Below, in pieces: positions 16,732 through 33,321 of a stretch of 64,000 nucleotides of DNA. Positions within the stretch are counted from its first letter, which is position 1. Each line of letters opens with the position of its first letter. The position numbers and the translations under genes were made by a program. The stretch covers positions 1 through 64,000 of the forward strand of contig JAOARL010000033.1 of the NCBI GenBank assembly GCA_025210555.1, in the 5' to 3' direction. The stretch is from Clostridia bacterium. Lineage in GTDB: Bacteria; Bacillota; Clostridia; Lachnospirales; JAOARL01. Under the pieces are notes generated by a model. That model did no database searches. It was not told the DNA's origin and saw only the letters and a list, made by a program, of their open reading frames with translations.

Positions 16732-16765
16732 CAAAAATAACTACTTCAATATGAAGTAGTTATTT
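16732..16765 (-). terminator. Terminator after the 2026-aa protein gene, second copy of a 34-bp repeat
   Basis: This is base-for-base identical to 10974-11007: a 13-bp stem, five-base loop and minus-strand T run. It starts immediately after the stop codon of the large gene. Confidence 0.9.
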
Positions 16766-16767
16766 CT

Positions 16768-19700
16768 TTATTTACTAAGTATTATTAACTTATTCTTACC
16801 TACATTACCTAGTTGATCATACGCCGTTAATGTTATGTTATAGAATCCATTGTTTAGTCCTACTACCTTCTGAATTACACTTTCATTTCCTGCGCTATCT
16901 CCTTTTATTACTCTTGTATTCTCTCCATCTTTACTTATTTCAACTACATATCTTATGTTCTTTGTTACGTTATCTAACATTTCAAGTCTTAAGTTTATCT
17001 CTCCGTTTTGAGCTATATTTATATTGTTAGCTGCACTCACTTTTACTTTTGGTCCTTCCCTATCTAACTTATATAATATTTCCTTAAACTTCTTTCCTTC
17101 TCCAAACTCATTTTTAGACTTAACATATACTGTCTTAAGTTCTGATGGTTCATTATCAAGCGTTACATACTTAACAACTTTATTTCCTGTTACCTTTTCC
17201 CATGGTGACCATCTTACTCCATTTGATGAATATGATATTTCAGTAACATTTTCAACATCTAATTCTAGTTTTACATTTCTTTCTTTTACCAGAATATATC
17301 CTTCAGCTGTTACTATTCCTTCATTTATTGTTCCACCTATATTGGCTCCATCTTGGTCATTTCCACTACTAGTATTCCCATTATTACCTTTATCTATTAT
17401 TACTACATTATTTCCATTTTTCTCTTTACTTACATATCTTATCTCTTTTGAAACATTTCCTACTCCATCATAGACATTTACCTCTATCTTATTTTCCCCA
17501 TCTTTTTCTAGTGGTATTCCTCCATAATATTTAGAGTATTTCCCTATGTGATCTGACTTCCACTTTCCTTCGTCAAAGTCATATCCATATCCATTTCCAT
17601 TTATTATAAACTTAACTCTTAAGTCATTTTTAGATACCATGTTATCTGTTACTACAAGCTTTGCATCAACTTCATCATGAGTTGTTTTTAAATCGCCATA
17701 ATTAACTTCAAATTCATCTATAACTGTTGGCGTATCTTTTTTAATAAAAAGTATTTCATCTATAAGTACTTCTTCTGTCTCTTCAAGATCTAAGTTTCTC
17801 ATCTTATAAGTAACCTTGTAATTAGCCCCTGGTGTAAATCCTTCAAGCTTTACTATTTCTTCATCTGTATAAGTGCTTTCTATCTTATTAGATAAAACAT
17901 CCATATTTTGGGCTATTACCTTAAGCTCTGGTACTGTTTCATTTTTAGAACTTGGCGTTACTCTTATATACATTTCATTCCCAAACACTGAATATATACT
18001 TATATTCTCAGGCTTTTCTGGCATTGTTACAAATTCAAAAGCACTACTATATTCATTTTCATTTAAGTTATTATCTCTCACCTTAACTTTTATGTTATAT
18101 CTTTTGTTAGATAATAAATCTTCAAACTCATGCTCCTGAGTATAAGAACTCTCTATTGCTTTTTCTACATTTAAGAATTTATAATCCTTTACTCCTGACC
18201 CACTATAATTATCTGTCATATATTTATCTGTAGCACTAGCTGATACTATTATGCTTTTAGTATCTTTATCTACTAGGTTAACTGTCCCTTCATTTGCATA
18301 GTCATTATCAAATATAGATGCTACATCTATATGATTAGCTCCGTGCCATACTCCTGCTGATGATGACCCTTCATCATCCAATGAAACTAAATGTATCCAA
18401 GCATAATATGAGTGTTTATTATATACTTCTCCACCATTAGCCTTTACATATAGATCGTTCCATGAAGAATCAATAAAATCTCCACTTCCATCTCTTTTGA
18501 AAATATCAGATGTTCCATCCCAAGCAGCTATTTGTGCTTTAGTAGGGAAAAATCTTAATACATCGCTATCAAATGATAATACATTTCCTAAATTTATAAA
18601 CCTATATCCATATCCATCAAATATGTAAAGTCCATAAGCTTTAGCTCCTGTAACAGTATTCCAGTTAATTCTAACTCTTGTTTTACCAGTGCCTAGCCCT
18701 TTACTAGAATATTCTTCAAGTGTAGTTATAGGTGTTGCCAGCGTATTACCACTTATAGTGCTAGTATATCCTGTATAATTTCCATTGTGTGATTTTGATC
18801 TTATTCTGTAATATTTTACAACTGATGGATTAGGACTTCCCCCTGTATCATCAACTAATCCTGTTTGTGCATATACTTGGTTAGTTCCTGTATAAAGATT
18901 TATCCATCCAGATGTGCCATTATCACTTACCTCAAGTTCATATACTGTTCCTGCTGAATTATAATTATTATTCCAGCTAACATTTATTTTTAAACTTTTA
19001 GCTGTGTTTCCATTAGTTGCCCCAAAGCTAGATGGAACATTTGCATTTGTGTACTGACTTAGGCTTAGACTTCTTACATTAAGTGTATTATCTCTTACTC
19101 TAATATTGTAAGTATACTGAGTATTTGGTGTTAAACTATTAAATGTCTTGCTGTTTCCACTTTGCCATGTAGCTCCACCATCAAAACTATAATCTTTTAT
19201 TCCAGATCCTGTATCACTTGCTGTTACTGTTACAGTTAGGCTTGTGCTAGAATTCACAGTCACTGCTGCACTAGCTACTGGAAGTGAGTCATCAACTGCT
19301 ACTTTAAGTCCTGTATTTCCATATCCATAATTGTTATTAGCATGATCTCTAAAATAATAATAAACACCATTTTCTGGCATCATCTTAAGTCCTTTTAAGG
19401 TAAACTCTGCTTCTTTAATCATGCCTGATTCGTACGTTTCACTTACTCCTGTAAAAGTTGCATATGTACTAGTATCAAACTCTACTATATTAGTTGCATC
19501 ACCTAACCAATTATGATAAGCTCTTACATCTTCTGAACCTGGAAGTTTAATATATGTTCTTATTATTCCAGCTAAATTATCTGCTCCTCTTAATCTTATT
19601 TTAAGTGTTTCGTTTTTCTTTATCCAATATATATTTCCATTTACATATGTAGCTCCACTAATTGAACTTGATATATATGTAGGAAGTGTCTTATCAATTT

Positions 19701-22700
19701 GATATGTTCCACTAGTCATTATCTGAACATTACCCGCATTATCTGTAACTTCAGCTTGAATCTTTCTTAGTCCTTCAGTTTCAAGAGGTATTACGCTATT
19801 TGTATTTCCATTTATATAGCTTCCCCATCCCCTATATGTACTACCATTATCAATACTAGTTCTAAATCTCCATCTATAAACATTAGATCCCCCACTATCA
19901 CTTGGGTTAAACGTAACTGATATATTATTCTTAGTCCATCCGCTACTATTTAGAGTAAAAGTTCCGCTAGGCTTTGTTTTATCTATATTTATTAATCTAT
20001 TTACACTATCACTTATATTCCCAACATTGTCTACTGTTCTTGCAAATATTGTCGTTATTCCTGCTTGACTTATTGTAACTGGGCTAGAATATGTAGTCCA
20101 TGAACCATTGCCTATTTTGTACTCTCTTCTAGCTAATCCTGACAAACTATCACTTCCACCAGTTACAGTAAAGCTAACATTGTTTTTAGTCCATGAACTG
20201 TTTACTGTTATCACTGGACTAGTTGGCTTTGTATTATCCGTTTTAAGATTATACCCTGTATCTTTCCATGTCCTATATGTTCTATTATATGGACTAGTTG
20301 CATCATCCGTTATTGCCATAATGTTGGCTGTTATATTTGAAGCTGTTATAACTTTAAATGTATAAGTAGCCTTAAGTGTACTACCATTATTCACATTGGT
20401 TGTAGATCCTGTAAACCCAACATGTGAATGTGTATTATAATTTGTTCCAGCATTTGTATTGTAATGACCTCTGTAAGGAGAACCAGTTACTCCAGATGTA
20501 TATAAAAACGATCTATACATTCCTGAACCACTATCGACTCCTTGTACCCAAAAACTAAGAGAATCATTTTGTTTAGCCCAGTAATCGCTTCCATTAATAT
20601 ATCTTGCACCTGACACATATCCATATGTCATTACAGGTGGCGTTGTATCTACTCTAAAACTTCTATGGGCAGACCATGGTGATACAGCTCCTTTAGAGTC
20701 CCATGTCATCACCCTAAATTTCCATGCTCCATCAGCTAATAAAGTTGTTGTTTTTGTTTTAGCTGAGCTTGTAACAACGCCTGTATCATATTGTACTGAT
20801 GAAAAATTATTTGTACTACCTTGTACTCTGTATTTAGTTTGAGCATCCCCACTATCTGGATCATTAAAATTCCAATTAATTGCCACTGTATTTACTTTTG
20901 TTTTAGCACCTTCTGCTGGTGCCGTTACTGTTGGTGCCGTTGGTGGCTGATTACTTAAAAGTATTACTCTCTTTGTAGAGTAAAAATTTCCATTCTTATA
21001 AGTATAATAATCCGACAATCCTGAAGTAGCTGCATAAATGTCAGGATGAGTATCACTTACACGCTTAAAACTATCACGTGGAAATGAACCTCCACCAGTT
21101 ATACTACTTCCATTAGAATAATATTTCAATTTATCTGCTAAACTATCTCCACCATAATTCCAAGGCGGATCACTAGTAGTAAATATACTGCTATATGTAC
21201 TATTATACGTTTCACTTAAATGTATATGACCAGCTCTAGTAAATAATATTCTTGTTCGTGTATGCCCTGCACCAGTACTATTAAACATCATTTTTGCACC
21301 TGTGCTAACTGGATACATGCGTTCATTTAACCATATAAATCTAACATAATTACCATATGCACGGTATTCTACACCTCTTACATAACAACCTTTCTGTCCA
21401 TCCCAAAAAGTTCCTGATCCATCATAGTAGTGAAAACCACCACCACCAACTTCATCATCTCTATATTCCCAAGGAGTTCCACTTACGTAAAAGTTAGTTC
21501 CATTCCATCTTATATCAAAAAATACTGTCATATTTGGGTCTGCTGTATCTCCACTATCATATATTTCAAAATATGTATATCTTGTATTATCAGGACTAGC
21601 CCATAATATCTTACTAGTGTCTGAGTAATCATACCAAGTACTGTTTTTATGCTCTATTGTAAAACCATATGATCTTTTATAATTACCATTACTGTCATAT
21701 ACTTCCATCTTGCTTGGATGCACATAATTATCATAATTTTTCTCATATAGAGTTCCATTTATATATTTATGTATTTCTCCATTTGGAGCTAAGAAAAACT
21801 GCTCATTAGACCCCGCTAGAAGTGTTTTATAATTTTTCCCCCCTAAAGATTTTTTAACTTTAACTTTAGTTGGTGTTACATACGAAATACCATAAGGATT
21901 ATAATATATATCTCCTTTATTATCTAGCATAGTAAGTCCTATGTTAAGCATATAAACTTTTTCTATACCTGATGGTGCATTTGTGTGCTCCTGAAACACT
22001 GTGCTAACATTACTACCAGAAGAATACAGTTTATTATCTGTTTTCCATATAACAACTCCACCATGATTCTTACTACTAAACATTCCTTTTACATTAGTTG
22101 CTATTTGCGTAAATGTATTAATTGCAGTTTTATTTCCTGTTCCAAACTCTCCATTTCTATTTTTTCCCTTAGCCCAAAGAGTTCCATCTGCTTTAAGTGC
22201 CAGTATATATTCATAAGTGTTGTAATCATGATGAACTACTGATTCTACGCCACTTATTCCTGATATTTTTTTGAACACATTTGAGTTTCCTACATACGCG
22301 TTTTTACCTGTATGCCACAATGTTCCATCAGTCTTCACTACAACCACACTATTATCTGCAATAGACACTGATTTTACATTACTATTTATCTTAATATAAT
22401 TAGATGTATTTTTATAATCAATGCCTAAGCCAAACTCTCCACTGCTTGAATATCCAATAGCCCATAAAGTATTATCATTCTTATGTAAAAGAGTATATCT
22501 TCTTGCTGAATAAAGTTTTTTCACTCCACTTATACGAGTGTCTAGTTTCATTTTCTTACTTGGATCATCATAGGTACTCCAAACTTTACCGTTTTCATAT
22601 GCAATGACTGTACCAAACGAAGTTTTTGATGCATCTATTGCTTTATCCGTTTTACTTCCCAAATCATCTATTTCTGTAAACTCATCTTTTAATCCATGTT

Positions 22701-22848
22701 TAAAACCATAAATACTTCCATTGTCATCTATAGCATACTGTTCTTCATCATATTTAAACAAAGACCCTGTTACGCTTGTTATTTTTGCATAACTTTTCAT
22801 ATTTAATACTAAAAACATCATTAGTAATCCAACAACTATCTTCTTCAT
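16768..22848 (-). CDS. Giant secreted modular protein: RCC1-like propeller plus FnIII/OmpL47-like modules
   Basis: The 2026-residue protein has a signal peptide (about 1-21). Residues about 30-330 carry RCC1-like repeats (for example ILALKADGTLWAKGKNRNGE), suggesting a beta-propeller. Residues 380-635 are aromatic-rich and unrecognised. From 638 a FnIII-like module (WNFNDPDSGD) is followed by TYGYVSGARY-type and OmpL47-like modules (SWTKNNVSFTVTGG..ARREYKIG, about 876). A FnIII-like YIFDG module lies near 1386. The last 320 residues closely match the end of the 2146-aa neighbour. No LPXTG, SLH or other wall anchor is visible. Adhesion or matrix roles are only inferred. It is monocistronic, with its own promoter and terminator. 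Confidence 0.72.
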   Translation of the reverse strand: MKKIVVGLLMMFLVLNMKSYAKITSVTGSLFKYDEEQYAIDDNGSIYGFKHGLKDEFTEIDDLGSKTDKAIDASKTSFGTVIAYENGKVWSTYDDPSKKMKLDTRISGVKKLYSARRYTLLHKNDNTLWAIGYSSSGEFGLGIDYKNTSNYIKINSNVKSVSIADNSVVVVKTDGTLWHTGKNAYVGNSNVFKKISGISGVESVVHHDYNTYEYILALKADGTLWAKGKNRNGEFGTGNKTAINTFTQIATNVKGMFSSKNHGGVVIWKTDNKLYSSGSNVSTVFQEHTNAPSGIEKVYMLNIGLTMLDNKGDIYYNPYGISYVTPTKVKVKKSLGGKNYKTLLAGSNEQFFLAPNGEIHKYINGTLYEKNYDNYVHPSKMEVYDSNGNYKRSYGFTIEHKNSTWYDYSDTSKILWASPDNTRYTYFEIYDSGDTADPNMTVFFDIRWNGTNFYVSGTPWEYRDDEVGGGGFHYYDGSGTFWDGQKGCYVRGVEYRAYGNYVRFIWLNERMYPVSTGAKMMFNSTGAGHTRTRILFTRAGHIHLSETYNSTYSSIFTTSDPPWNYGGDSLADKLKYYSNGSSITGGGSFPRDSFKRVSDTHPDIYAATSGLSDYYTYKNGNFYSTKRVILLSNQPPTAPTVTAPAEGAKTKVNTVAINWNFNDPDSGDAQTKYRVQGSTNNFSSVQYDTGVVTSSAKTKTTTLLADGAWKFRVMTWDSKGAVSPWSAHRSFRVDTTPPVMTYGYVSGARYINGSDYWAKQNDSLSFWVQGVDSGSGMYRSFLYTSGVTGSPYRGHYNTNAGTNYNTHSHVGFTGSTTNVNNGSTLKATYTFKVITASNITANIMAITDDATSPYNRTYRTWKDTGYNLKTDNTKPTSPVITVNSSWTKNNVSFTVTGGSDSLSGLARREYKIGNGSWTTYSSPVTISQAGITTIFARTVDNVGNISDSVNRLINIDKTKPSGTFTLNSSGWTKNNISVTFNPSDSGGSNVYRWRFRTSIDNGSTYRGWGSYINGNTNSVIPLETEGLRKIQAEVTDNAGNVQIMTSGTYQIDKTLPTYISSSISGATYVNGNIYWIKKNETLKIRLRGADNLAGIIRTYIKLPGSEDVRAYHNWLGDATNIVEFDTSTYATFTGVSETYESGMIKEAEFTLKGLKMMPENGVYYYFRDHANNNYGYGNTGLKVAVDDSLPVASAAVTVNSSTSLTVTVTASDTGSGIKDYSFDGGATWQSGNSKTFNSLTPNTQYTYNIRVRDNTLNVRSLSLSQYTNANVPSSFGATNGNTAKSLKINVSWNNNYNSAGTVYELEVSDNGTSGWINLYTGTNQVYAQTGLVDDTGGSPNPSVVKYYRIRSKSHNGNYTGYTSTISGNTLATPITTLEEYSSKGLGTGKTRVRINWNTVTGAKAYGLYIFDGYGYRFINLGNVLSFDSDVLRFFPTKAQIAAWDGTSDIFKRDGSGDFIDSSWNDLYVKANGGEVYNKHSYYAWIHLVSLDDEGSSSAGVWHGANHIDVASIFDNDYANEGTVNLVDKDTKSIIVSASATDKYMTDNYSGSGVKDYKFLNVEKAIESSYTQEHEFEDLLSNKRYNIKVKVRDNNLNENEYSSAFEFVTMPEKPENISIYSVFGNEMYIRVTPSSKNETVPELKVIAQNMDVLSNKIESTYTDEEIVKLEGFTPGANYKVTYKMRNLDLEETEEVLIDEILFIKKDTPTVIDEFEVNYGDLKTTHDEVDAKLVVTDNMVSKNDLRVKFIINGNGYGYDFDEGKWKSDHIGKYSKYYGGIPLEKDGENKIEVNVYDGVGNVSKEIRYVSKEKNGNNVVIIDKGNNGNTSSGNDQDGANIGGTINEGIVTAEGYILVKERNVKLELDVENVTEISYSSNGVRWSPWEKVTGNKVVKYVTLDNEPSELKTVYVKSKNEFGEGKKFKEILYKLDREGPKVKVSAANNINIAQNGEINLRLEMLDNVTKNIRYVVEISKDGENTRVIKGDSAGNESVIQKVVGLNNGFYNITLTAYDQLGNVGKNKLIILSK
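20620..20950 (-). repeat. FnIII-like module shared by the three large proteins (copy 1)
   Basis: This encodes about 105 residues beginning near PPTAPTVTAPAEG, with core WNFNDPDSGD, KYRVQGSTNNF and a WKFRVMTWD strand, and ending VDTTPP. Clear homologues lie at 27905-28225 and 31915-32220. Confidence 0.8.
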
Positions 22849-22883
22849 ATATCCACTCCTTATTTAATTCTCAATATATTCTC

Positions 22884-22912
22884 ATTTTACTCCTTAAAAT
22901 ACATATTGTCTA
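22884..22912 (-). promoter_or_regulatory. Candidate sigma-A promoter for the 2026-aa protein gene
   Basis: On the minus strand TAGACA (22907-22912) and TAAAAT (22884-22889) are separated by exactly 17 bases, about 35 bases before the start codon and after the terminator of the preceding gene. Confidence 0.5.
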
Positions 22913-22956
22913 CTATATTAGGAGTAAATCAAATTATTAAATTTTTCTAAAGTCAC

Positions 22957-22984
22957 AAAAAAAGAATGCCTATATAGGCATTCT
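22957..22984 (-). terminator. Terminator after the 2146-aa protein gene
   Basis: A perfect eight-bp stem (22963-22970 with 22977-22984) encloses a six-base loop. It is followed on the minus strand by seven T residues, six bases after the stop codon. Confidence 0.9.
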
Positions 22985-22990
22985 CTTAGT

Positions 22991-25900
22991 TTACTTACTC
23001 CAAAGATTCATACTAGCTTTCCCTTCATTTCCAAGCTGGTCTTTTACAACTACTTCTACGCTATAACTTCCAGCTGAGAGTCCACTTATTGGCTCTAAGA
23101 TACTAGTTAACCCTTTTGTTTTTCCTTCTATAACTTTCTCACTACTTTCAGACTTAACTGTTATCTTATATGAAAGGTCTTTACTTACATTATCCTTTGC
23201 TTCAAGTTTTAATGTCACCTTTCCATCTTTTGCTATTCTTATATTATTACTTGTTGTTATATTTACCTCTGGCCCTTCTCTATCTAGTAGGTAGTATATT
23301 ACTTTTATGTCTCCTTCAGCTTTCGCTTCATCTCTTACTCTTACGTACACTGTCTTTACTATTCCTACCTTTTCATCAAGTTCTACATACTTAAGTATTG
23401 TAGAATCTTTTACTTTTTCCCATGGTGACCATACTACTGAGTCTTTTGATACTGCAAACTCATCTCCTGATGAGCTATACTCTATCTTAACTAGTCTTTC
23501 TCTTGTTAAGATTCTTCCATCCTCATCATATAATATATCACTTACTTCTGATCCTGTATCAATAGGTTTCTCTACTATAACAGGCTTACTAGTATTTGTT
23601 TGATATGTTACTAGCTTTGTAAGTCTTGCCTTATTACTTCCCTCATCTACTATAGTTGCAGTTATTCTGTTTTCACCTATTCCATCTAGCTTAAATCCTC
23701 CATAGTATGTTTGGTAGTCCCCAAAGTGGTTTTCTTTCCATACACTTCCATCACTATCATATCCATACTTTCTTCCATTTATATCAAACTGCACTTTAAG
23801 ATCTTTTTCAAATGTTTTATCATCTGATGCTACTAGCTTCATATCTATTTCACTTTGAGTTGTTGTAGCATTACCATAGTTTATTTCAAAGCTATGTATT
23901 ACTGGGTCATTATCATTACTTGTAAACATTATATTATCAAGTACATTCTTTCTCTCTTCATGACCAGCTATATTCTTAACTACTGCATCTACCTTATAAT
24001 TAACAGCTGGCGTTAAGCCTTCTACTGTTATTATCTCTTTATCTGTAAATGCCATTTCTACAGTATCAGATGAATCAGCCTTATTTATACATATTATCTT
24101 AACTTCTGGTCTCACGTTATTTCTATCATCTGTATAAACTCTTACTGCTACCTTATTATCTTCTGTATCTATTACATCTATTTGTGGCACTACTGCATAT
24201 GTTGTTATATTTCTTGTAAGTGAATGAATATTATCTACATTATCTCTTACATATGCTTTTAGTGTATATCTTTTATTAGATTTAAGATCTGCAAAGTTTT
24301 TACTTGTATCACTTCCATAACTTCCTATATCACTTCCAAGATCTACTCTATAATCTTTTACTCCAGATAATGTATCTATAGCGCTTATATCTGCTCTTAT
24401 ATAATCATATCCTTGCTCTGTGCTATCTATACTTAAAACTGGATTTGTCTTATCTATTAGATATACTCCACTTCTTATGATATTTTCATTTCCTGATTTA
24501 TCTACTAGCTTTATCTCTATCATTCTCTTACCATCACTTGGTGATAATGATCCATTATATAATGGAACTGTGAGTCCTGACCAGCTAGTCCATGTACTTC
24601 CCTCATCTAGGCTATGTCTTATCTGGCAGTTAGCTCCTTCTAATCCTGCTGGGCCATTATCAGATGAATCTACCCTAAAGGCTACGTCTACTTTACCCCA
24701 TGTGCCTTGTGAGTTTGGCGTAAAGCTTCCTATAGGTTTTGTTTTGTCTACTACAATGTTACTTGTGTAAGTAACATCATCACTTCCTCCCATCTGGTCA
24801 TCTACTGATACTTTAAATCCTGTATATGTTCCTTCAAGAAGTTCACTTGTATTCCAGCTAAGAGTATAAGCTCCTGCTCCTACTCTTGTAGTAGTTTTCT
24901 CTACTCCTCCTATAGTTCCTTTTATTATCATGTTATCGCTATCTGCATCCACTATAGTACCTGTTATATTAAGTGTTTCATTATCCTTTTTATATACTAA
25001 TGAATCACTAACTGTTATATCTGGTACTATATTATATTTTACCTTCATAAGCTTATCAGCGTATCCTTCTCCACCGTTTGAATCTCTAACTATAAGTCTT
25101 AAGTTTACATCTGTAAGTTCTTCACTATCTCTTCCTCCAAGATAATCTTTTATAGTATCAAGATATGCCTTATCATAATCTATTCTAGCATCAAAGTAAC
25201 CTTCCTGACCTGTACTTACAAATCCTTTTATAAATCTTTCTGCTGTCTTTTTAGTGTTATCTAGTGGTGAGTAGAAGAAGTACTTTCCTATAAGTGTTTC
25301 TCCACTATCATCTATAACTTTTCCACTTATGTCCATATGTGTAAATGGCTTAAGTTTACTAAGTGGCGTATCTTGAGTAACTACTGGCTTATTATTATAT
25401 ACCTTTATAGTTACTGCCTTATTTACTAGACCACCTTTATGGTCTGTAACACTTAAATCTATCTGTACATCTTTTTCATATCTAGTTCCGTTCCATACAA
25501 ACTCATTTATATCAAACTTAGATGTATCTATATCTATTGCTACGCTTCCTTTTCCTACTCCAGATGTTCTGCCCAGCATCACCGCATATACTCCAGCTGA
25601 TAAGCTGTAATCTATAGTGTCAGCTACGTCAACGTCACTTATATTTATATTTAGTTTTCCGGTTTCCCCTTTAAGGTAAGCTGCCTTATCTGTTGACATA
25701 GTTACTACTGGCTCTGAGTTTACATAAGGAGTTAATCCTCCTGCAAAATGTAAGTTACCTGCATTATCAAATATATATACATCTGTATGATAAGCTCCAC
25801 GAATGTTTCCATGATCTGATATATCTACTCTAAATCTATATGTCCCAGATCCCATGTCAGTTCCACGAATTGTTACATTATTATGCCAGTCTGTTGCTAA

Positions 25901-28900
25901 ATCATCTTGTCCACCTGCTGCTGACCATGTAGGGAACTGTACTCTATTTACTCCAGATATAGAATCTAGTGCTCCTTTTACTTCTACCTCATATCCGTTC
26001 ATATCTACTGCTATAATATCTACACTTATACTTGTAGGTATACTCTTATCAACTCTAACAGTTTTTGTTTCTTCATCACTTATATTTCCTGCTGTATCTA
26101 TTGTTCTAGCCAGCACTGTAGTTACCCCTTCATTACTTACTGTTACGCTACTAGAATATGTAGTCCAGTCTACAGTAGTTGCTCCTGATAATTTATATTC
26201 TGTTCTTAAAAGTCCTGATAATCCTGAGTTACCATGAACTATAGCAAAGCTTACATCTTCTTTAGACCAGCTTTCATCCACTGTTATAGTAGGACTAGTT
26301 GCTTTTGTCTTATCTATATTTATAACTCTGCTTACTTCTGCACTTATGTTTCCTACATTGTCTACTGTTCTTGCATATACTGTTGTAGTTCCTTCAGCTG
26401 AGATAGTAACAGCTGAACTATAAGTTTGCCAGCTTCCACTTTCTATCTTATATTCTCTTCTAGCTACTCCTGATCCTGTGTCACTTCCACCTGTTATAGT
26501 GAAGTTAACATCTGTATTTTGCCAGCTAGAATCCACATTTATAGTTGGCACTGTTGGATTTGTATTATCTGTTTTTACTCTATATGATGTATCTATCCAA
26601 GTTCCACCAGTTCTATTATAAGGACTAGCTAAATCATCGGTTATAACCTCGATACCACCTATTACATCCTCTGTTGTATCTAATAAAATATCAAATGTAG
26701 CTTTAAGTGTATTACCATTATTTACATTATCAACTGAATCTGTAATCTTAAACTTATTGTGAATATTTTCATTTGCCTCTGTTCCATTAAATGCATGCAT
26801 TCTGTATGGATTTTCCGCTTCATATCTAACACGAACATATACTCTTCTCATTCCAGCATCATTATCAATACCTTGAACCCAAAATTTAATGGCATCTCCA
26901 TTTTTAATCCAGTAATCTACTCCATCTACGTATCTTGCTCCAGATGCATATCCATAAGTCATAGTTGGCACGGTTTTATCTATATAATAATCTCCAGAAT
27001 AAACTGTATTAGAGTTTCCTGCATTATCTTCTATATATATTTTTATTTTTCTATGTCCTTCAGCGCTTAAAGTTGACGATGATACTCCAGTTTCTTCTGC
27101 ATACCATCCCCCATAAGTACTTCCACCATTTGTTGAATATGCTTCTTTATATACCTTAACTCCTGATAAATTATCACTTGGTGTGTATGTTACTCCAACA
27201 TTACTGTTTGTCCAACCACTTGTGTTATTAGGTGAAAAACTAGCTGTTGGCTTTGTCTTATCTATCTTAACTTGCTTACTTACCTGAGCACTTACATTTC
27301 CTACATTATCTACTGTTCTTGCATATACTGTTGTTATCCCTTCAGTACTTACTGTTACTGCAGAGCTATATGTAGTCCATGCTCCACTTCCTATCTTATA
27401 TTCTCTTCTAGCTACCCCTGACAAACTATCTGTACCACCTGTAACAGTAAAGTTGACATTGGTATTTTGCCAGCTAGAATCTACATTTATAGTTGGCGCT
27501 GTTGGAATTACATTGTCTATTTTTAGTCTTAATCCATTTGCATCTGACCAGCCACTTCTATTACGTGTATCAGCTAAGTCATCAGCTATAGATTTTATCT
27601 CTGCTGTTAAGTTTTCAGATGTATTAATTAACACATCAAATGTTGCTTTAAGTACTCCACCACCATTTGTATTTGATACTGAATCCGTTATTTTAATTTT
27701 ATCATGCGTACCTGCATTAGTTTCTGTACCACTTGAATAATGTGCTCTATATGGGTTATTTGATCCATGATCCGCTATTAAATAAACCCTTTTCACTCCA
27801 GCACCGTTATCTACACCTTGAACATAAAACTTTACGGTATCTCCATTTTTTGCCCAATAATTTTTTCCACTTACATATCTTGCTCCTGACACATAACCAT
27901 AAGTAAGCGTTGGCGGCGTTGTATCCACCATAAAGCTTCTATGCGATGACCATGGTGAAGCTTCTCCAGCTGCATCCCATGTCATTATTCTAAACTTCCA
28001 ATTTCCATCTGCTAATGCAGTAGTTGTTCTAGTTTTAGCTGAGCTACTTATAGTACCTGACTCATAATGAATAGTTGAAAAGTTATTTGTGCTCCCTTGA
28101 ACTCTATATTTACTTTGAGTATCTCCACTATCTGGGTCATTAAAATTCCAGTTAACTGTTACTGTGTTATCACTTGTTTTTAGTCCATTAGTTGGTGCTG
28201 TTATAGTTGGCGCTGTCGGTGCTGCATTAAATGTGTATTTAACTATTCTTTCTGTTGCTCCTCCTGATATACTATCTCCATATAAAACAAATAATGCTCC
28301 ATTATTAAACACCATTGACCATGTATGCTTACCACCCTCATTTAATATCTCTTTAAGTTCCAAAGTAGTAGCATCAACTATTGCAACTTCCGCTGAAGAA
28401 GCAAGGATCATTAAATCATTCTTATACTTTGCCACTTTCCCTAAATTAGTAGTTCTATGATAACTTAGAGTTCTTGACATTGTTAATGTTTTACCACTTA
28501 CTTTTGATCCTGAAGTGCTAAATTTATCTATATAAACTTTACCACGCTCAGTAGTTACTGCGCATGCATAGCTAGAATCATCATAATATCCTACTCCATA
28601 TGAGTTACCTACTCCTGTATATGGGTTAGTAGTAGAACCATTGGTCTTTCCAATTCTAGCCCTCCATCTTGAACCATTGCTCCTACTTTTACTAGCTGAT
28701 AATACACTATTAGGAACTCTTGAAGACGTATAGTATCTCATACTACTATACGTTATATTACTAGCTCCCAATGATCCAGTTCCATTCTGTAATTTACCTG
28801 TCAAGTCTGCATCGACAGTAAAATGTTGATAATCATTTATGTCCCAAGGTCTATCAAAGTAATTTCTCCAAGGTGCTTCCTCATCTCTATCAAAATCTCC

Positions 28901-29431
28901 AACATAACCTTTTAATTTATAAACATTCCCCACTTTAAATATTCTTCTAAAATAAGCCCTATGTCTGTACTTACCGGCTGCATCTATTCCAGTTGGTGGA
29001 ATTACTCTTCCTGGATTAGATCCACCTACGTTAAGAGGATCTATTACAACTGCAAAAGCTCCACCAGCTTGATCATCACCACGTCTTGGTTTTTTACTTG
29101 CAGTTCCAACTACAAGATATTTACCATTATCAAGTTTTACAATATCTTTTACTGAAACCTGATGGTTATACCCCGCTGCTGAAGTTAAATTTCTTTCCCA
29201 AACTTTGCTAAGATTTGTATTATACTTAATTATTCTAGTATAATACCCATGTTCTGAGTTACTAACTTCTACAGTATAAAATAAACCTCCATCAATTTTA
29301 TCGTCTATAATATTTCCTACTTCTGCTTGATTACCTAAACTTATAGTTTTACTTTTTGTTAAGGCATGTGAATTAAAATTTATAGTGATAAACAAACTTG
29401 TTATAATAGTTAAAAGTAATATTCTTTTCAT
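22991..29431 (-). CDS. Giant secreted modular protein with FnIII, OmpL47-like and GBS_Bsp-like modules
   Basis: The 2146-residue protein has a signal peptide (about 1-23). An N-terminal region (25-400) with recurring short strand units looks propeller-like but was not identified. A FnIII-like module lies at about 404-503. TYGYVSGARY/TYGYASGARY modules lie near 503 and 822, and OmpL47-like modules with SWQNT..ARREYKIG cores near 643 and 960, with others near 727 and 1047. A GBS_Bsp-like unit (VQFPTW..GQDDL) lies near 1150-1230, then Ig-like domains. The final 320 residues parallel the 2026-aa paralogue. No anchor motif is seen. The modules suggest extracellular binding; no partner can be named. 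It has its own terminator and a candidate promoter. Confidence 0.72.
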   Translation of the reverse strand: MKRILLLTIITSLFITINFNSHALTKSKTISLGNQAEVGNIIDDKIDGGLFYTVEVSNSEHGYYTRIIKYNTNLSKVWERNLTSAAGYNHQVSVKDIVKLDNGKYLVVGTASKKPRRGDDQAGGAFAVVIDPLNVGGSNPGRVIPPTGIDAAGKYRHRAYFRRIFKVGNVYKLKGYVGDFDRDEEAPWRNYFDRPWDINDYQHFTVDADLTGKLQNGTGSLGASNITYSSMRYYTSSRVPNSVLSASKSRSNGSRWRARIGKTNGSTTNPYTGVGNSYGVGYYDDSSYACAVTTERGKVYIDKFSTSGSKVSGKTLTMSRTLSYHRTTNLGKVAKYKNDLMILASSAEVAIVDATTLELKEILNEGGKHTWSMVFNNGALFVLYGDSISGGATERIVKYTFNAAPTAPTITAPTNGLKTSDNTVTVNWNFNDPDSGDTQSKYRVQGSTNNFSTIHYESGTISSSAKTRTTTALADGNWKFRIMTWDAAGEASPWSSHRSFMVDTTPPTLTYGYVSGARYVSGKNYWAKNGDTVKFYVQGVDNGAGVKRVYLIADHGSNNPYRAHYSSGTETNAGTHDKIKITDSVSNTNGGGVLKATFDVLINTSENLTAEIKSIADDLADTRNRSGWSDANGLRLKIDNVIPTAPTINVDSSWQNTNVNFTVTGGTDSLSGVARREYKIGSGAWTTYSSAVTVSTEGITTVYARTVDNVGNVSAQVSKQVKIDKTKPTASFSPNNTSGWTNSNVGVTYTPSDNLSGVKVYKEAYSTNGGSTYGGWYAEETGVSSSTLSAEGHRKIKIYIEDNAGNSNTVYSGDYYIDKTVPTMTYGYASGARYVDGVDYWIKNGDAIKFWVQGIDNDAGMRRVYVRVRYEAENPYRMHAFNGTEANENIHNKFKITDSVDNVNNGNTLKATFDILLDTTEDVIGGIEVITDDLASPYNRTGGTWIDTSYRVKTDNTNPTVPTINVDSSWQNTDVNFTITGGSDTGSGVARREYKIESGSWQTYSSAVTISAEGTTTVYARTVDNVGNISAEVSRVINIDKTKATSPTITVDESWSKEDVSFAIVHGNSGLSGLLRTEYKLSGATTVDWTTYSSSVTVSNEGVTTVLARTIDTAGNISDEETKTVRVDKSIPTSISVDIIAVDMNGYEVEVKGALDSISGVNRVQFPTWSAAGGQDDLATDWHNNVTIRGTDMGSGTYRFRVDISDHGNIRGAYHTDVYIFDNAGNLHFAGGLTPYVNSEPVVTMSTDKAAYLKGETGKLNINISDVDVADTIDYSLSAGVYAVMLGRTSGVGKGSVAIDIDTSKFDINEFVWNGTRYEKDVQIDLSVTDHKGGLVNKAVTIKVYNNKPVVTQDTPLSKLKPFTHMDISGKVIDDSGETLIGKYFFYSPLDNTKKTAERFIKGFVSTGQEGYFDARIDYDKAYLDTIKDYLGGRDSEELTDVNLRLIVRDSNGGEGYADKLMKVKYNIVPDITVSDSLVYKKDNETLNITGTIVDADSDNMIIKGTIGGVEKTTTRVGAGAYTLSWNTSELLEGTYTGFKVSVDDQMGGSDDVTYTSNIVVDKTKPIGSFTPNSQGTWGKVDVAFRVDSSDNGPAGLEGANCQIRHSLDEGSTWTSWSGLTVPLYNGSLSPSDGKRMIEIKLVDKSGNENIIRSGVYLIDKTNPVLSIDSTEQGYDYIRADISAIDTLSGVKDYRVDLGSDIGSYGSDTSKNFADLKSNKRYTLKAYVRDNVDNIHSLTRNITTYAVVPQIDVIDTEDNKVAVRVYTDDRNNVRPEVKIICINKADSSDTVEMAFTDKEIITVEGLTPAVNYKVDAVVKNIAGHEERKNVLDNIMFTSNDNDPVIHSFEINYGNATTTQSEIDMKLVASDDKTFEKDLKVQFDINGRKYGYDSDGSVWKENHFGDYQTYYGGFKLDGIGENRITATIVDEGSNKARLTKLVTYQTNTSKPVIVEKPIDTGSEVSDILYDEDGRILTRERLVKIEYSSSGDEFAVSKDSVVWSPWEKVKDSTILKYVELDEKVGIVKTVYVRVRDEAKAEGDIKVIYYLLDREGPEVNITTSNNIRIAKDGKVTLKLEAKDNVSKDLSYKITVKSESSEKVIEGKTKGLTSILEPISGLSAGSYSVEVVVKDQLGNEGKASMNLWSK
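25740..25985 (-). other. GBS_Bsp-like repeat encoded within the 2146-aa protein
   Basis: The encoded segment has VQFPTWSAAGGQDDL followed by GTYRFRVDISDHGN and AYHTDVYIFDNAGN. This is the pattern of GBS_Bsp-like units found in streptococcal Bsp and other wall-associated Gram-positive proteins. One unit only was seen. Confidence 0.65.
27905..28225 (-). repeat. FnIII-like module shared by the three large proteins (copy 2)
   Basis: It begins APTAPTITAPTNG, shares WNFNDPDSGD and RVQGSTNNFS with copy 1, and ends VDTTPP. It is the most similar pair member of copy 1. Confidence 0.8.
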
Positions 29432-29468
29432 ATTTTTCTCCTATCAGAATTATTTTTTTATTAATTAA

Positions 29469-29477
29469 ATTTTATCA
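29469..29477 (-). promoter_or_regulatory. Extended -10 element for the 2146-aa protein gene
   Basis: TGATAAAAT on the minus strand is a TGn-extended -10, 37 bases before the start codon. No good -35 is visible. Closely related elements precede the 1225-aa protein gene and miaB. Confidence 0.4.
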
Positions 29478-29505
29478 TAACAATACTCTATTTAATATAC
29501 TTAAC

Positions 29506-29540
29506 AAAAAAATAATGATCCATTTTAAAATGAATCATTA
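29506..29540 (-). terminator. Terminator after the 1225-aa protein gene
   Basis: A 14-bp near-perfect palindrome (29513-29526 with 29527-29540, one G-U pair) is followed on the minus strand by seven T residues. It begins six bases past the stop codon. Confidence 0.85.
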
Positions 29541-29546
29541 CTTTTA

Positions 29547-32500
29547 TTAATAACTATTACTTATCTCTATATTTATATCCTTTGTAGATGTGTTATTACC
29601 TTCATCAGTTGCTTCTATTCTCATTACTACTGTATTCCCTACTACAAAGTTAGAATTTATACTTGCTGCCATCAGTATTTTACCTGTATCTACTTCTGTT
29701 ACTCCAGATCCTGTACTTATACTTATAGCTCCTGTATCCAGTCCTCCAAATAAAAGTTTAACTTTTATATTTTGAACTCTTGTTGTGTCTTCTACTTTTA
29801 TCTTCTCATGTACATATGAATTAGGTGCAAGTTTAATATTATTCCCTGATGTTTTTATTACTGGCAATACCTTATCTATCTTAGTTACGCTAACTACTTC
29901 TACTCTTTCATTTCCTACATTATCTCTTGCATATATAGTTATATCTTTATTCTCTCCAACTATTATATTTCCTCCTGAAAGAGCATTACCTACTGTTCCA
30001 TTTACAAAGTCTCCTACTACTTTATTTCCTTCTTGCCAAAGAACAGTGTTTAAACCACTTTCTGTCTCAGTTGTAGTTACTGATAATGTTACATCAGTAT
30101 TTACATATGATGCTGGATTACCTGTTACAGATATAATTGGAGCATCTACATCTGTTCTATCAGGTAATGATATATAATAAAGATTTGCATAACTATAAGT
30201 TCTTATAGTTCCTTGCTTTGCTCTTACTCTTATTGCATATGATTTATTTGAATTATAAGCCGTTCCAGTAGAACTTCTATATAAACTTCTTGGATCATCA
30301 CTAAGATCTAATCCGCTTTTATCATGTTTAAATATATCATCATTTCTTGTATTATCTGCATATCCACTTATTACTGCTTCAGTTGGATAAACATGTTCTA
30401 ATCTACTATCAAAGACTAAATTATTTCCAACATTAAATATACGGTACTTATTTCCGTCATATATAAGAACTTCATATTCATTAGCTCCTTCTACAGCTGG
30501 CCATGTTAATTTTATATATCCTCTTCCTTCTCTGCTCCAATTAAGTGGTCCATAGCTTCCTGTAATATTAGGAACTCCTGACATATGCTTATAATCACTA
30601 TAAGCTGTTTCTACTAAATCTCCATTTCTAGCATTTACTCTATAATAATATGTTGTATATTTACTTGGAACTACTACATCTTCTGTAAGACTAGTAGACC
30701 AATCTCTTATTACCTCTAGATTTTCATTAAATGTGTCATTCGTTGCTCTTTCTATTCTATATTCTGTATTTGCTGGATTTCCTTCAGCATTAATTGTAAT
30801 TTTGTGTATTACACCTTCTTTATTACTTAAATCTCCACTTGATGCATCTGCTACTGTTATACTAGGTTCTTTAGCAAATGTATATTTAGCATTCAAATTC
30901 TTTTCTCTTATATTTCCTACATTATCAATTACTCTTGTTTTTAATATATACTGAGTATTTGGATTTAATCCTGCTATATCTTTAACGTCACTTGATTCAT
31001 AAGTACTCCAGCTACTTCCGTTATAATAACTATATCTATTTACTGGAAGTCCTGATAATAAATCATTAGTAGCACCTACGTTAATTCTCATACTATTAGT
31101 GCCCGTCGTTGTAAGATTAACTGTATAATCTTCTGGTAAATCTGCATCTGTTCTATTAGGTAGAGTTGGCATATATGGTGTTGAATAAACCGATTCTCCA
31201 ACGGTATTGTATGCTGAAACTCTAAACCAATAATTTTTTTTATTATTATGTGCTGCATATGATGATTTAAGATATAATCTACTTGGATTATCCCTTAAAT
31301 CTAAACCTGTCTTGCTATGATTAAATATATCTATTGTTCTAGTATCATCAGCATCTTGATTAATTCTTGCTTCTGTTGGATAAACTTTCCATACACTTGA
31401 GTCCCACGTTGTTGTATTCCCAGCATCCCAGGCTCTATAAGTACTTCCATCATATATATGCACTTTATACCCTGTTGCTCCTGTTTGAGCTTGCCAGTTA
31501 AGTATTACTTTCCCTCTTCCTTCTGTTTTATGCCATAAAACACCTGCTGTGCTACCTGTTGGAGTGGGTGGCGTGCTTGGCACTGTCCATCTATCCTTCC
31601 ATGAGTAATTGCCATAATTTCCTGCATTATCTCTATATCTTATAGTAAATCTATATTTGTTACCCGGTAATAATCCATTGAATACATGACTTGTTTTATT
31701 TGTTTCATTATAAGACTTCCCTGCTTCTGGAGTACCATCATTATCTATGTCTACAGTATCTTCCCAATCGCTACCATTCCACCTTTTAGCATATATTCTA
31801 ACACTATGATATCCTGAACTTGGACTACTATCTGCAAACGCTTTCCAATTCATTGTAATAGAAGTATCAGTTGTGTTTGTATATGTTCCTGTTGATAAAT
31901 TTGGATTATCTGGCAAAGTCGTATCCACTAATACATTAGTAAGTTCACCCCAGCTTGATGCTCCACCATTATTGTCCCATACTTTTACTCTGAATTTCCA
32001 TATTCCATCAGCTAAAGCTGTTGTTGTTTTAGTTTTAGCACTGCTTGTTACAACTCCTGAATTATAATGATTGGTAGTAAAATTATCTGTACTCCCAATT
32101 AATTGATATTTTCCCTGTGTATCTCCACTATCAGGATCACTAAAGTTCCAGTTAACAGTTACTGTGTTATCTTTAGTTTTAATTCCCGTAGCCGGTGCTG
32201 TTATAGTCGGTTTATTAGGGTTTTGATTATATATTCTTACATACCAATAACCATCTGAATGTTTTCCGTTATTTGGATAAGCTCCAGCTGGAGCAATAAT
32301 ATTACTCTGAACTAAACTTCCTTTTGCATTACTCACTACAGTATATTTATCATATCTTGCTTCTGTATATGATACGCCTGACTTATCAGGTGGAAGATAC
32401 ACCCAATAATCTAACAATGTAAATGTTGCCGTATCACTATATTTATCCATTGGTATTTTTATAGTTTTTTTATATGGACCATTTATTATATGTTCATACA

Positions 32501-33224
32501 TACAATATCTCATAGATGAATTTACCTTATAATAAACCTTTGTGTAGAAAACATACTTTTCTCCACTTGGAACGTCTATTTTCACATCTACATTTCTAGT
32601 GCCATGATATGATTCAGTAGCTCCAATGGCATTCATTTCATCTTCTTTTATATTATACCAACCTCTGTTGCTATGGTATGGATTTTTACCATATAATCCC
32701 TTGTTCATTACATTATAGTTATATTTATCAAGTACAAATTCTCCTTCGTCCCAATCTCCATTTGATACAAACTCTTGCTCTGTTGTAAGTCTAACATCTA
32801 CATAACCATCGAATGGACCTTCAATATACCAAACACCCACCTCTTCATGCCACTCATCACTTCCTGACATGCTACTTTTATATAATGATAACCCACTAAC
32901 TTCCTGAGCATCTTTATTATCTATAAGTTTTCCTCTTGAGGTAACATTAAATCTTCTATCTGCACCAAACACTCTTGCCTGTGCTCTATATAGATGTGCT
33001 TCACCTGCTGGAACTGTAATTCCAACTTGTCTGGTTACAGTCTGATCTCCTTTTTTATCACTAGCATCTATTCTTACTCTATTATATCTAGTAAAATTGG
33101 ACGTTGAAGTATACCCCCCTATTATTACTCCGCTTTTACCAAAAATTTCATTAAAACTTGTATATGCTGATACATTTAATGCAAAACCTATTATCATTAG
33201 AAAAATTAATATAATTTTCTTCAT
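29547..33224 (-). CDS. Large secreted fibronectin-III-rich protein
   Basis: The 1225-residue protein has a signal peptide (about 1-20) and an unrecognised, aromatic-rich N-terminal region (20-335). FnIII-like domains follow: the module shared with both larger neighbours (about 336-435), another near 436-545, and two copies of a distinctive module near 550-680 and 885-1015. That module has KVHIYDG or EVLIYDG, DSxxxxxYPTEA and DIFxHxKSGLDL or DIFxHDKSGLDL. Ig-like domains near 1028 and 1118 end the protein. No SLH, LPXTG or membrane anchor is present. GGAGG precedes the ATG at good spacing. It is monocistronic, set apart by terminators on both sides. Confidence 0.72.
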   Translation of the reverse strand: MKKIILIFLMIIGFALNVSAYTSFNEIFGKSGVIIGGYTSTSNFTRYNRVRIDASDKKGDQTVTRQVGITVPAGEAHLYRAQARVFGADRRFNVTSRGKLIDNKDAQEVSGLSLYKSSMSGSDEWHEEVGVWYIEGPFDGYVDVRLTTEQEFVSNGDWDEGEFVLDKYNYNVMNKGLYGKNPYHSNRGWYNIKEDEMNAIGATESYHGTRNVDVKIDVPSGEKYVFYTKVYYKVNSSMRYCMYEHIINGPYKKTIKIPMDKYSDTATFTLLDYWVYLPPDKSGVSYTEARYDKYTVVSNAKGSLVQSNIIAPAGAYPNNGKHSDGYWYVRIYNQNPNKPTITAPATGIKTKDNTVTVNWNFSDPDSGDTQGKYQLIGSTDNFTTNHYNSGVVTSSAKTKTTTALADGIWKFRVKVWDNNGGASSWGELTNVLVDTTLPDNPNLSTGTYTNTTDTSITMNWKAFADSSPSSGYHSVRIYAKRWNGSDWEDTVDIDNDGTPEAGKSYNETNKTSHVFNGLLPGNKYRFTIRYRDNAGNYGNYSWKDRWTVPSTPPTPTGSTAGVLWHKTEGRGKVILNWQAQTGATGYKVHIYDGSTYRAWDAGNTTTWDSSVWKVYPTEARINQDADDTRTIDIFNHSKTGLDLRDNPSRLYLKSSYAAHNNKKNYWFRVSAYNTVGESVYSTPYMPTLPNRTDADLPEDYTVNLTTTGTNSMRINVGATNDLLSGLPVNRYSYYNGSSWSTYESSDVKDIAGLNPNTQYILKTRVIDNVGNIREKNLNAKYTFAKEPSITVADASSGDLSNKEGVIHKITINAEGNPANTEYRIERATNDTFNENLEVIRDWSTSLTEDVVVPSKYTTYYYRVNARNGDLVETAYSDYKHMSGVPNITGSYGPLNWSREGRGYIKLTWPAVEGANEYEVLIYDGNKYRIFNVGNNLVFDSRLEHVYPTEAVISGYADNTRNDDIFKHDKSGLDLSDDPRSLYRSSTGTAYNSNKSYAIRVRAKQGTIRTYSYANLYYISLPDRTDVDAPIISVTGNPASYVNTDVTLSVTTTETESGLNTVLWQEGNKVVGDFVNGTVGNALSGGNIIVGENKDITIYARDNVGNERVEVVSVTKIDKVLPVIKTSGNNIKLAPNSYVHEKIKVEDTTRVQNIKVKLLFGGLDTGAISISTGSGVTEVDTGKILMAASINSNFVVGNTVVMRIEATDEGNNTSTKDINIEISNSY
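31915..32220 (-). repeat. FnIII-like module shared by the three large proteins (copy 3)
   Basis: It begins NKPTITAPATGIKTKDNTV, shares WNFSDPDSGD and the WKFRVKVWD strand with copies 1 and 2, and ends VDTTLP. Confidence 0.78.
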
Positions 33225-33295: not shown

Positions 33296-33321
33296 TAAAA
33301 AAAGCATAACATCTGTCATGC
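33296..33321 (-). terminator. Terminator at the end of the motility supercluster
   Basis: An eight-bp stem (33304-33311 with 33314-33321, one G-U pair) is followed by eight T residues on the minus strand. It begins seven bases after the MltG-like gene and separates motility transcription from the giant surface-protein genes. Confidence 0.85.

Follow-up and report, generated by a model that had tools for sequence, protein, structure and literature searches.

Fibrillar adhesins of Firmicutes and Actinobacteria are large secreted proteins in which an N-terminal head is set on a long stalk of Ig-like repeats and the anchor often goes unrecognised, only about half of the positives in the survey having one (PMC9210967). 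On the Ig stalks of the phage receptor-binding 'tentaclins' the head is a DUF6273 domain, reported to resemble the C-type-lectin fold (PMC10743442). The PilC/PilY1 tip proteins of type IVa pili are large, modular, Sec-secreted non-pilins (PMC10191384); PilC has been classed among the late-stage components of the outer membrane that monoderms lack, and a review of type IV pili in monoderms does not settle which component is responsible for binding (PMC6916266). Interchangeable tips of a Tad pilus, KilLMN, have been reported in Myxococcus (PMC12075869). Here we describe three giant proteins, A, B and C, encoded next to a flagellar and chemotaxis cluster in a stretch of 64,000 bases (contig C21, bases 1-64000; hereafter the window) from a Clostridia bacterium whose genome assembly (G000) comprises 1,560,156 bases in 38 contigs and is 99.6% complete. 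They belong to a family dispersed over this genome, and we compare them with the systems above.

Three giant proteins and their genome-wide family

The three open reading frames (ORFs) lie on the minus strand and together encode 5397 amino acids (aa; 2026, 2146 and 1225 for A, B and C). Their principal features are as follows.

16768..22848, minus strand: protein A, 2026 aa; signal peptide, RCC1-like propeller head, unique region, Ig_Rha78A_N, OmpL47-type repeats, common C-terminal tail
22003..22563, minus strand: RCC1-like (WD40_RLD) head of A, aa 96-282, partial match (Pfam E=2.4e-13; phmmer against solved RCC1 propellers, best E=1e-4)
20650..20916, minus strand: Ig_Rha78A_N of A, aa 645-733, the first domain common to A, B and C (Pfam)
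16771..18129, minus strand: C-terminal tail of A, about 453 aa, last residues LSK (alignment)
22991..29431, minus strand: protein B, 2146 aa; signal peptide, orphan head, Ig_Rha78A_N, five OmpL47-type stretches, GBS_Bsp-like domain, common tail
28232..29362, minus strand: head of B, aa 24-400
25739..26005, minus strand: GBS_Bsp-like domain of B, aa 1143-1231 (Pfam E=3.8e-12)
22994..24298, minus strand: C-terminal tail of B, last residues WSK (alignment)
29547..33224, minus strand: protein C, 1225 aa; signal peptide, unique head, connector motif YPNNGKHSDGYWYV, Ig/FnIII stalk, a C-terminus other than the common tail, also present in the copy on contig C28
32232..33164, minus strand: head of C, aa 21-331
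29592..31148, minus strand: C-terminal half of C, 79% identical to the contig C28 paralogue

Each protein begins with a Sec-type signal peptide (MKKIVVGLLMMFLVLNMKSYA, MKRILLLTIITSLFITINFNSHA and MKKIILIFLMIIGFALNVSA in A, B and C, respectively), past which no hydrophobic segment is found (19-aa Kyte-Doolittle maximum 1.08-1.40) and no transmembrane segment. Neither a sortase motif within the final 60 residues nor a Pfam match to SLH, CWB2, choline-binding or LysM domains was detected in any of them. The three are related well beyond chance (BLASTP E=2e-153 and 7e-31): A and B are 44% identical over 695 aa and 37% identical across their final 477 aa, and the Ig_Rha78A_N module of C is 61-64% identical to those of A and B. 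An earlier note on this DNA had described three mutually related signal-peptide proteins of about 5400 residues, with different N-terminal regions and no LPXTG, SLH, choline-binding or membrane anchor, and in all of this it proved right. Its list of common FnIII-, Ig- and OmpL47-like modules needs trimming: Ig_Rha78A_N is present in all three (in C under the curated cut-off, as is the fn3 match of C), whereas OmpL47-type domains were matched in three stretches of A (E=8e-27) and five of B (E=3e-54) and are absent from C. These domains liken A and B to OmpL47-type proteins (NCBIfam NF047446); OmpL47 itself, however, is a Leptospira outer-surface protein, and its equivalog model scores far under cut-off here (58 and 128 bits vs 250).

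A, B and C have mutually unrelated heads. Searches with the heads and the tail against PDB sequences returned a single match, that of the head of A to RCC1. The head of B matched nothing in Pfam or among PDB sequences and has no homologue among 196 genomes of the order; its AlphaFold2 (AF2) model, built from two sequences, was uninformative (pLDDT 28) and was set aside. For the head of C, likewise without a Pfam or PDB sequence match, the connector end alone finds a counterpart in the order outside G000, in genome G138. This connector motif, (A)xxGxYPxNGxHxDGYWYV, lies at head-stalk junctions (window 32238-32297; stretch L020), and occurs twice in a large secreted protein of G138 encoded directly 3' of a Tad cluster (L124 5103-9749). 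For the N-terminal regions, which the earlier note proposed to search with structure-based tools, Pfam and PDB sequence searches yielded an RCC1 relationship for A and no match for B and C. No known adhesive domain was recognised in the three proteins.

Searched against its own genome, protein B gave 22 matching stretches, spread over ten contigs. The family numbers at least 11 genes, A, B and C being three of them and at least eight others residing on other contigs:

C5: at least 1767 aa, RCC1 head, cut off by the contig end
C2b: 1570 aa, DUF6273 head
C36: 1499 aa
C25a/C25b: 1120 aa with DUF6273, and 659 aa, mostly tail
C29: 2275 aa, DUF6273 and LamG_3
C28: 1142 aa, at a contig end
C30b/C30a: 365 aa, and at least 738 aa at a contig end
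Two detached tails: at the starts of contigs C2 and C20
C10: 2032 aa, a more distant member

Across the family the heads are RCC1 propellers, DUF6273 domains (in C2b, C25a and C29, not in A, B or C), LamG-like domains (Pfam) and others without known relatives. The paralogues adjoin housekeeping genes (identified by eye), for example scpB, the triosephosphate isomerase gene, a TlyA-like and a metG-like gene. Gene pairs were also observed (L021 5965-11318; L024 1-3324): a secreted ORF with SFY as its last residues stands directly 5' of a second family gene, which bears the tail in L021, as though head and stalk/tail had been divided between two genes.

In their large size, secretion, N-terminal head and long Ig-like stalk the giants resemble fibrillar adhesins, and the missing anchor lowers but leaves possible their membership of that class, because an anchor was present in only about half of the surveyed positives. 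They differ in that no known adhesive domain was recognised in A, B or C, in that a common tail takes the place of an LPXTG or other anchor, and in that heads appear to be swapped within one genome. With tentaclins, the tail-bearing C2b and C29 share DUF6273 heads on Ig/FnIII chains and a conserved C-terminal Ig domain; the giants, however, are host-chromosomal and 1100-2300 aa long, and no reverse transcriptase of a diversity-generating retroelement (DGR) was found. A phage or plasmid origin was considered and set aside: the single phage match was weak and confined to the GBS_Bsp-like domain, and the tail was found on no viral contig; plasmids were not searched.

Mosaic identity and the joining of the chromosome

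Comparison of paralogue pairs at the nucleotide level revealed unrelated heads followed by alternating blocks of very high and low identity (96-100% beside 56-70%). Identity between C36 and A climbs from 66-80% to 93-100% toward the 3' end, and that between C28 and C from 66-77% to 92-100%, whereas in C5 and B blocks of 56-67% are interspersed with blocks of 93-100%. In the four main pairs, identical runs, the longest of which measure 52-128 bases, and window variance exceed those of column shuffles (p 0.001-0.002). Recombination or gene conversion between the dispersed copies is the simplest account of the mosaic; from this pattern we infer that heads have been exchanged, and that stalks and tails have been homogenised, by recombination between copies. 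DGR diversification was rejected as a source of variation: both reverse transcriptases above cut-off in the genome carry the QGAPTSP, NAxxH and VTG motifs and were read as retron-type. These two enzymes, of about 340 aa, are encoded on C35 (L147) and C15 (L148); the gene in front of each has a phosphoribosyltransferase-like motif.

Taken together, A, B and C probably belong to a larger repertoire, spread through the genome, of modular proteins that are secreted and serve recognition. In a broad sense these are fibrillar adhesins, and their heads would be exchanged by recombination. The description of the locus as an adhesion/matrix system of undescribed function can be kept in so far as the proteins are secreted, modular and adhesin-like; 'undescribed' now applies to their exact ligands. 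No paper on the tail family was found in the open-access literature, a search that leaves most subscription journals uncovered.

Recombination among near-identical copies also bears on the neighbourhood itself, which may be a product of rearrangement or of assembly, the flagellar end having been joined, in the cell or in silico, to the rluB end by way of giant genes. In relatives, a conserved string, fliA-FapA-(small ORF)-DUF6115-YceG, is followed directly by rpsB-tsf in 8 of 15 cases; in G000, rpsB is on contig C38 with no giant upstream, so that the flagellar-rpsB junction is broken. Similarly, scpB and rluB lie no more than about 1.3 kb apart in at least nine relatives and are split here, scpB being followed by C5, whose sequence is nearly identical to that of B where it leaves its contig, and rluB being preceded by A. 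The flagellar, scpB and rluB ends all touch giants, and five contig ends (those of C5, C28, C30, C2 and C20) fall within the family. The final 221 aa of B are 97% and 94% identical to the copies on C2 and C20, and the contig breaks of its sister copies delimit one interval:

23656..24687, minus strand: interval of B between the contig breaks of sister copies; C5 ends at gene nucleotide 4745, C2 and C20 start at nucleotide 5776

Because sister copies end contigs in near-identical repeats on both sides of this interval (about 23.66-24.69 kb), the join through B depends on the assembly. On the other hand, the contig is continuous, each of the three heads is unique in sequence and assemblers usually break rather than misjoin. 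We hold such an origin of the neighbourhood to be possible, though doubtful: the giants may have recombined with one another and rearranged the chromosome, or the assembly may have linked copies within B that do not belong together.

The common C-terminal tail and type IV filaments

A tail of about 455 aa ends six complete members (A, B, C36, C25b, C29 and C2b) and the two detached pieces. It terminates in (I/L)(W/L)SK at the stop codon, the S-K being invariant in an alignment of 10 sequences. The AF2 model derived from this alignment is all-beta (pLDDT 80, pTM 0.40), the individual domains being well predicted and their mutual placement not. Foldseek matched it to chains of tandem FnIII/Ig domains, among them fibronectin, gp130, SiiE and GhpA; differences in how the chains bend keep the TM-scores low. 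The tail is accordingly predicted to consist of beads of Ig/FnIII type, with no barrel or membrane element.

Within the order the tail was detected in three of 392 genomes, G000, G006 and G043. The G006 protein (2005 aa) combines DUF6273, an RCC1 head of seven stretches and a tail ending in IWSNKK; that of G043 (1773 aa) displays RCC1-like repeats (by eye) and ends in ILWSK. Phylum-wide, 18 further genomes matched at E<=1e-8, many in part only. The C-terminal tail is evident in 10 of them, and most of those read have beta-propeller-like N-termini (by eye). In nine neighbourhoods retrieved outside the order the tail alignment runs to the last few residues of the protein.

All nine of these loci have Tad-pilus genes nearby: RcpC/CpaB (SAF), CpaF (T2SSE), TadB/TadC, a prepilin peptidase (Peptidase_A24) and TadE or Tad-like genes. 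They are found in G758, G489, G562, G663, G717, G506, G667 and G777 (about 7 kb off in the last); the ninth case, G505, is weak, with a TadG-like piece 1 kb from the tail and a CpaF-like gene about 18 kb off. The same Tad queries gave no match in 155 kb made up of 15 fliA-downstream stretches, a crude control drawn from other genomes; three of the nine loci come from one family, and the nine span seven families. Inside the order, the G006 giant lies directly 3' of a PilX-like gene and an SLH gene. G000 possesses a relative of this PilX-like gene on contig C7 (30% identity over 456 aa, E=1e-58), where it is likewise followed by an SLH gene, the two closing a pilB-pilC-pilins-pilN/O operon, as well as a Tad-like cluster on contig C22.

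Several further observations concern these clusters. Found with the tail genes in Tad clusters is another conserved secreted protein, about 700-750 aa long, with ..WFVVLQGR.. at its end (L149 13251-15458, L150 10281-12398, L151 10419-12551, L155 13796-16036, L157 4277-6433 and L196 6232-8480); the one tested contains Ig_Rha78A_N. The C22 cluster of G000 encodes a CpaF-like ATPase, two platform-like proteins and small pilin-like proteins (L173 13424-20000; L178 1-16000). To its sides lie SLH proteins, together with secreted ORFs (1004, 1315, 1640 and 1139 aa) that have no relationship to the tail family.

The tail might, as a tentative reading, be the docking end by which the giants attach to a type IV filament (a type IV or Tad pilus) or to envelope components produced with it, given that genes for tail homologues in other genomes lie within or close to pilus clusters. 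The link between tail and filament holds across lineages and would extend to the window proteins by homology. No sortase is encoded in G000, by which sortase anchoring was rejected, and the giants are devoid of SLH domains; a docking tail would therefore fill a gap. In the mechanism proposed, the signal peptide would direct export by Sec; the head would be displayed on a flexible chain of Ig, FnIII and OmpL47 beads, as the predicted structures suggest; and the tail, judging from its conservation up to the stop codon and its synteny with pilus clusters, would dock. Swapping of heads across the common stalk and tail, to which the mosaic identity points, would then let the cell keep one display system with many specificities.

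Four observations weigh against docking. First, no giant was found in the C7 type IV pilus cluster or the C22 Tad cluster of G000 itself, with about half of the genome read. Second, protein C and its C28 paralogue are without the common tail and share a different C-terminus of their own. Third, the tail domains are generic Ig/FnIII sandwiches, of a kind that can also be free or bind the wall. Fourth, the G043 tail gene begins 103 bases from a contig end, which hides its upstream context. The contig end 162 bases past the PilX-SLH pair on C7 was considered as the place of a missing giant gene and rejected, since it is a separate repeat that also ends C15, C17, C18 and C20. This 138-base sequence, 99-100% identical at the five contig ends (L162, L148, L170, L171 and L019), is perhaps a ribosomal or insertion element.

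Among known tip proteins, PilC/PilY1 resemble the giants in size, modularity and Sec secretion, in the propeller head of some members and, for G006 though not for the copies in G000, in the adjoining minor-pilin genes. No sequence relationship is apparent, however; A, B and C gave no Pfam match to PilY1/Neisseria_PilC, and the giants' propeller, as in A, is N-terminal. The KilLMN system offers a parallel of another kind, one filament with several alternative variable tips, and Tad genes lie near the tail homologues; unlike the giants, with their ordinary Sec signal peptides, KilLMN are minor pilins with prepilin leaders. One or two filament machines alongside a dozen dispersed, recombining giant non-pilins, most with one docking tail, could represent one filament with alternative heads, that is, PilY1-like exchangeable tips, although we regard this as doubtful.

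Alternatively, the proteins could form a matrix, freely released or loosely associated with the wall (biofilm or S-layer), in which stalk and tail are structural and have no dedicated docking partner. This fits the lack of any known kind of anchor in the giants and the ordinary tandem Ig/FnIII nature of the tail; the genome encodes about ten SLH proteins, hence an S-layer-type surface to bind. A matrix would not, however, be expected to conserve a C-terminus to the stop codon across several families, nor to link tail genes to pilus clusters, and we consider it unlikely.

Enzymatic and flagellar readings

That the giants are polysaccharide-degrading or other enzymes with Ig/FnIII linkers is highly improbable: Ig_Rha78A_N occurs in rhamnosidases, as its Pfam name alone indicates, but Pfam, NCBIfam and PDB sequence searches matched none of the three proteins to a catalytic domain.

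The transcriptional context of the genes includes the following elements.

33304..33321, minus strand: terminator hairpin ending the flagellar/chemotaxis cluster, 3' of the YceG-like gene, between the cluster and C
29505..29540, minus strand: terminator hairpin and T run 3' of C (inspection)
22963..22984, minus strand: terminator hairpin 3' of B
16735..16765, minus strand: terminator hairpin 3' of A
22884..22912, minus strand: promoter-like TAGACA-17-TAAAAT upstream of A; similar sequences upstream of the paralogues on C5, C28 and C30

The claim that each gene has its own terminator and candidate promoter is upheld by inspection for the terminators, a hairpin with a T run standing 3' of each gene, but neither class exceeds shuffled sequence (terminators 5 vs 4.9, promoter-like sites 94 vs 87.7). 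No structured RNA was found in the 14-38 kb part of the window.

The earlier note had further described the genes as an island beside the motility cluster, had thought their place at the end of the sigma-28 string potentially meaningful and had suggested examining co-occurrence with motility genes; a tie to motility was not borne out. There is next to no probability left for flagella- or chemotaxis-linked proteins under sigma-28, for although the giants adjoin the flagellar cluster on the same strand and the tail genes of G777 also lie near flgC-like and fliF-like genes, terminators stand between cluster and giants, the SigD promoter TAAA-N15-GCCGATA has no strict match in the window (loose matches not exceeding shuffles), paralogues are scattered, none of 15 relatives has a giant after the fliA-FapA-DUF6115-YceG end, and the tail's three of 392 genomes contrast with a strong fliA match in 20 of 25 relatives. 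Promoters, synteny, taxonomic spread and dispersal of the paralogues led us to reject a motility link; synteny elsewhere is with the type IV filament (Tad or type IV pilus), not the flagellum, and the position beside the flagellar cluster is incidental.

Should the giants be PilY1-like exchangeable tips, they would place such proteins in a Gram-positive-type lineage group that is said to lack non-pilin tip proteins. Whether or not pili are involved, what looked like an island beside motility genes belongs to a genome-wide repertoire. Families of this kind can distort local gene order and assemblies, and a small genome of 1.56 Mb would here diversify its surface through recombination of dispersed head-and-tail genes rather than through DGRs.

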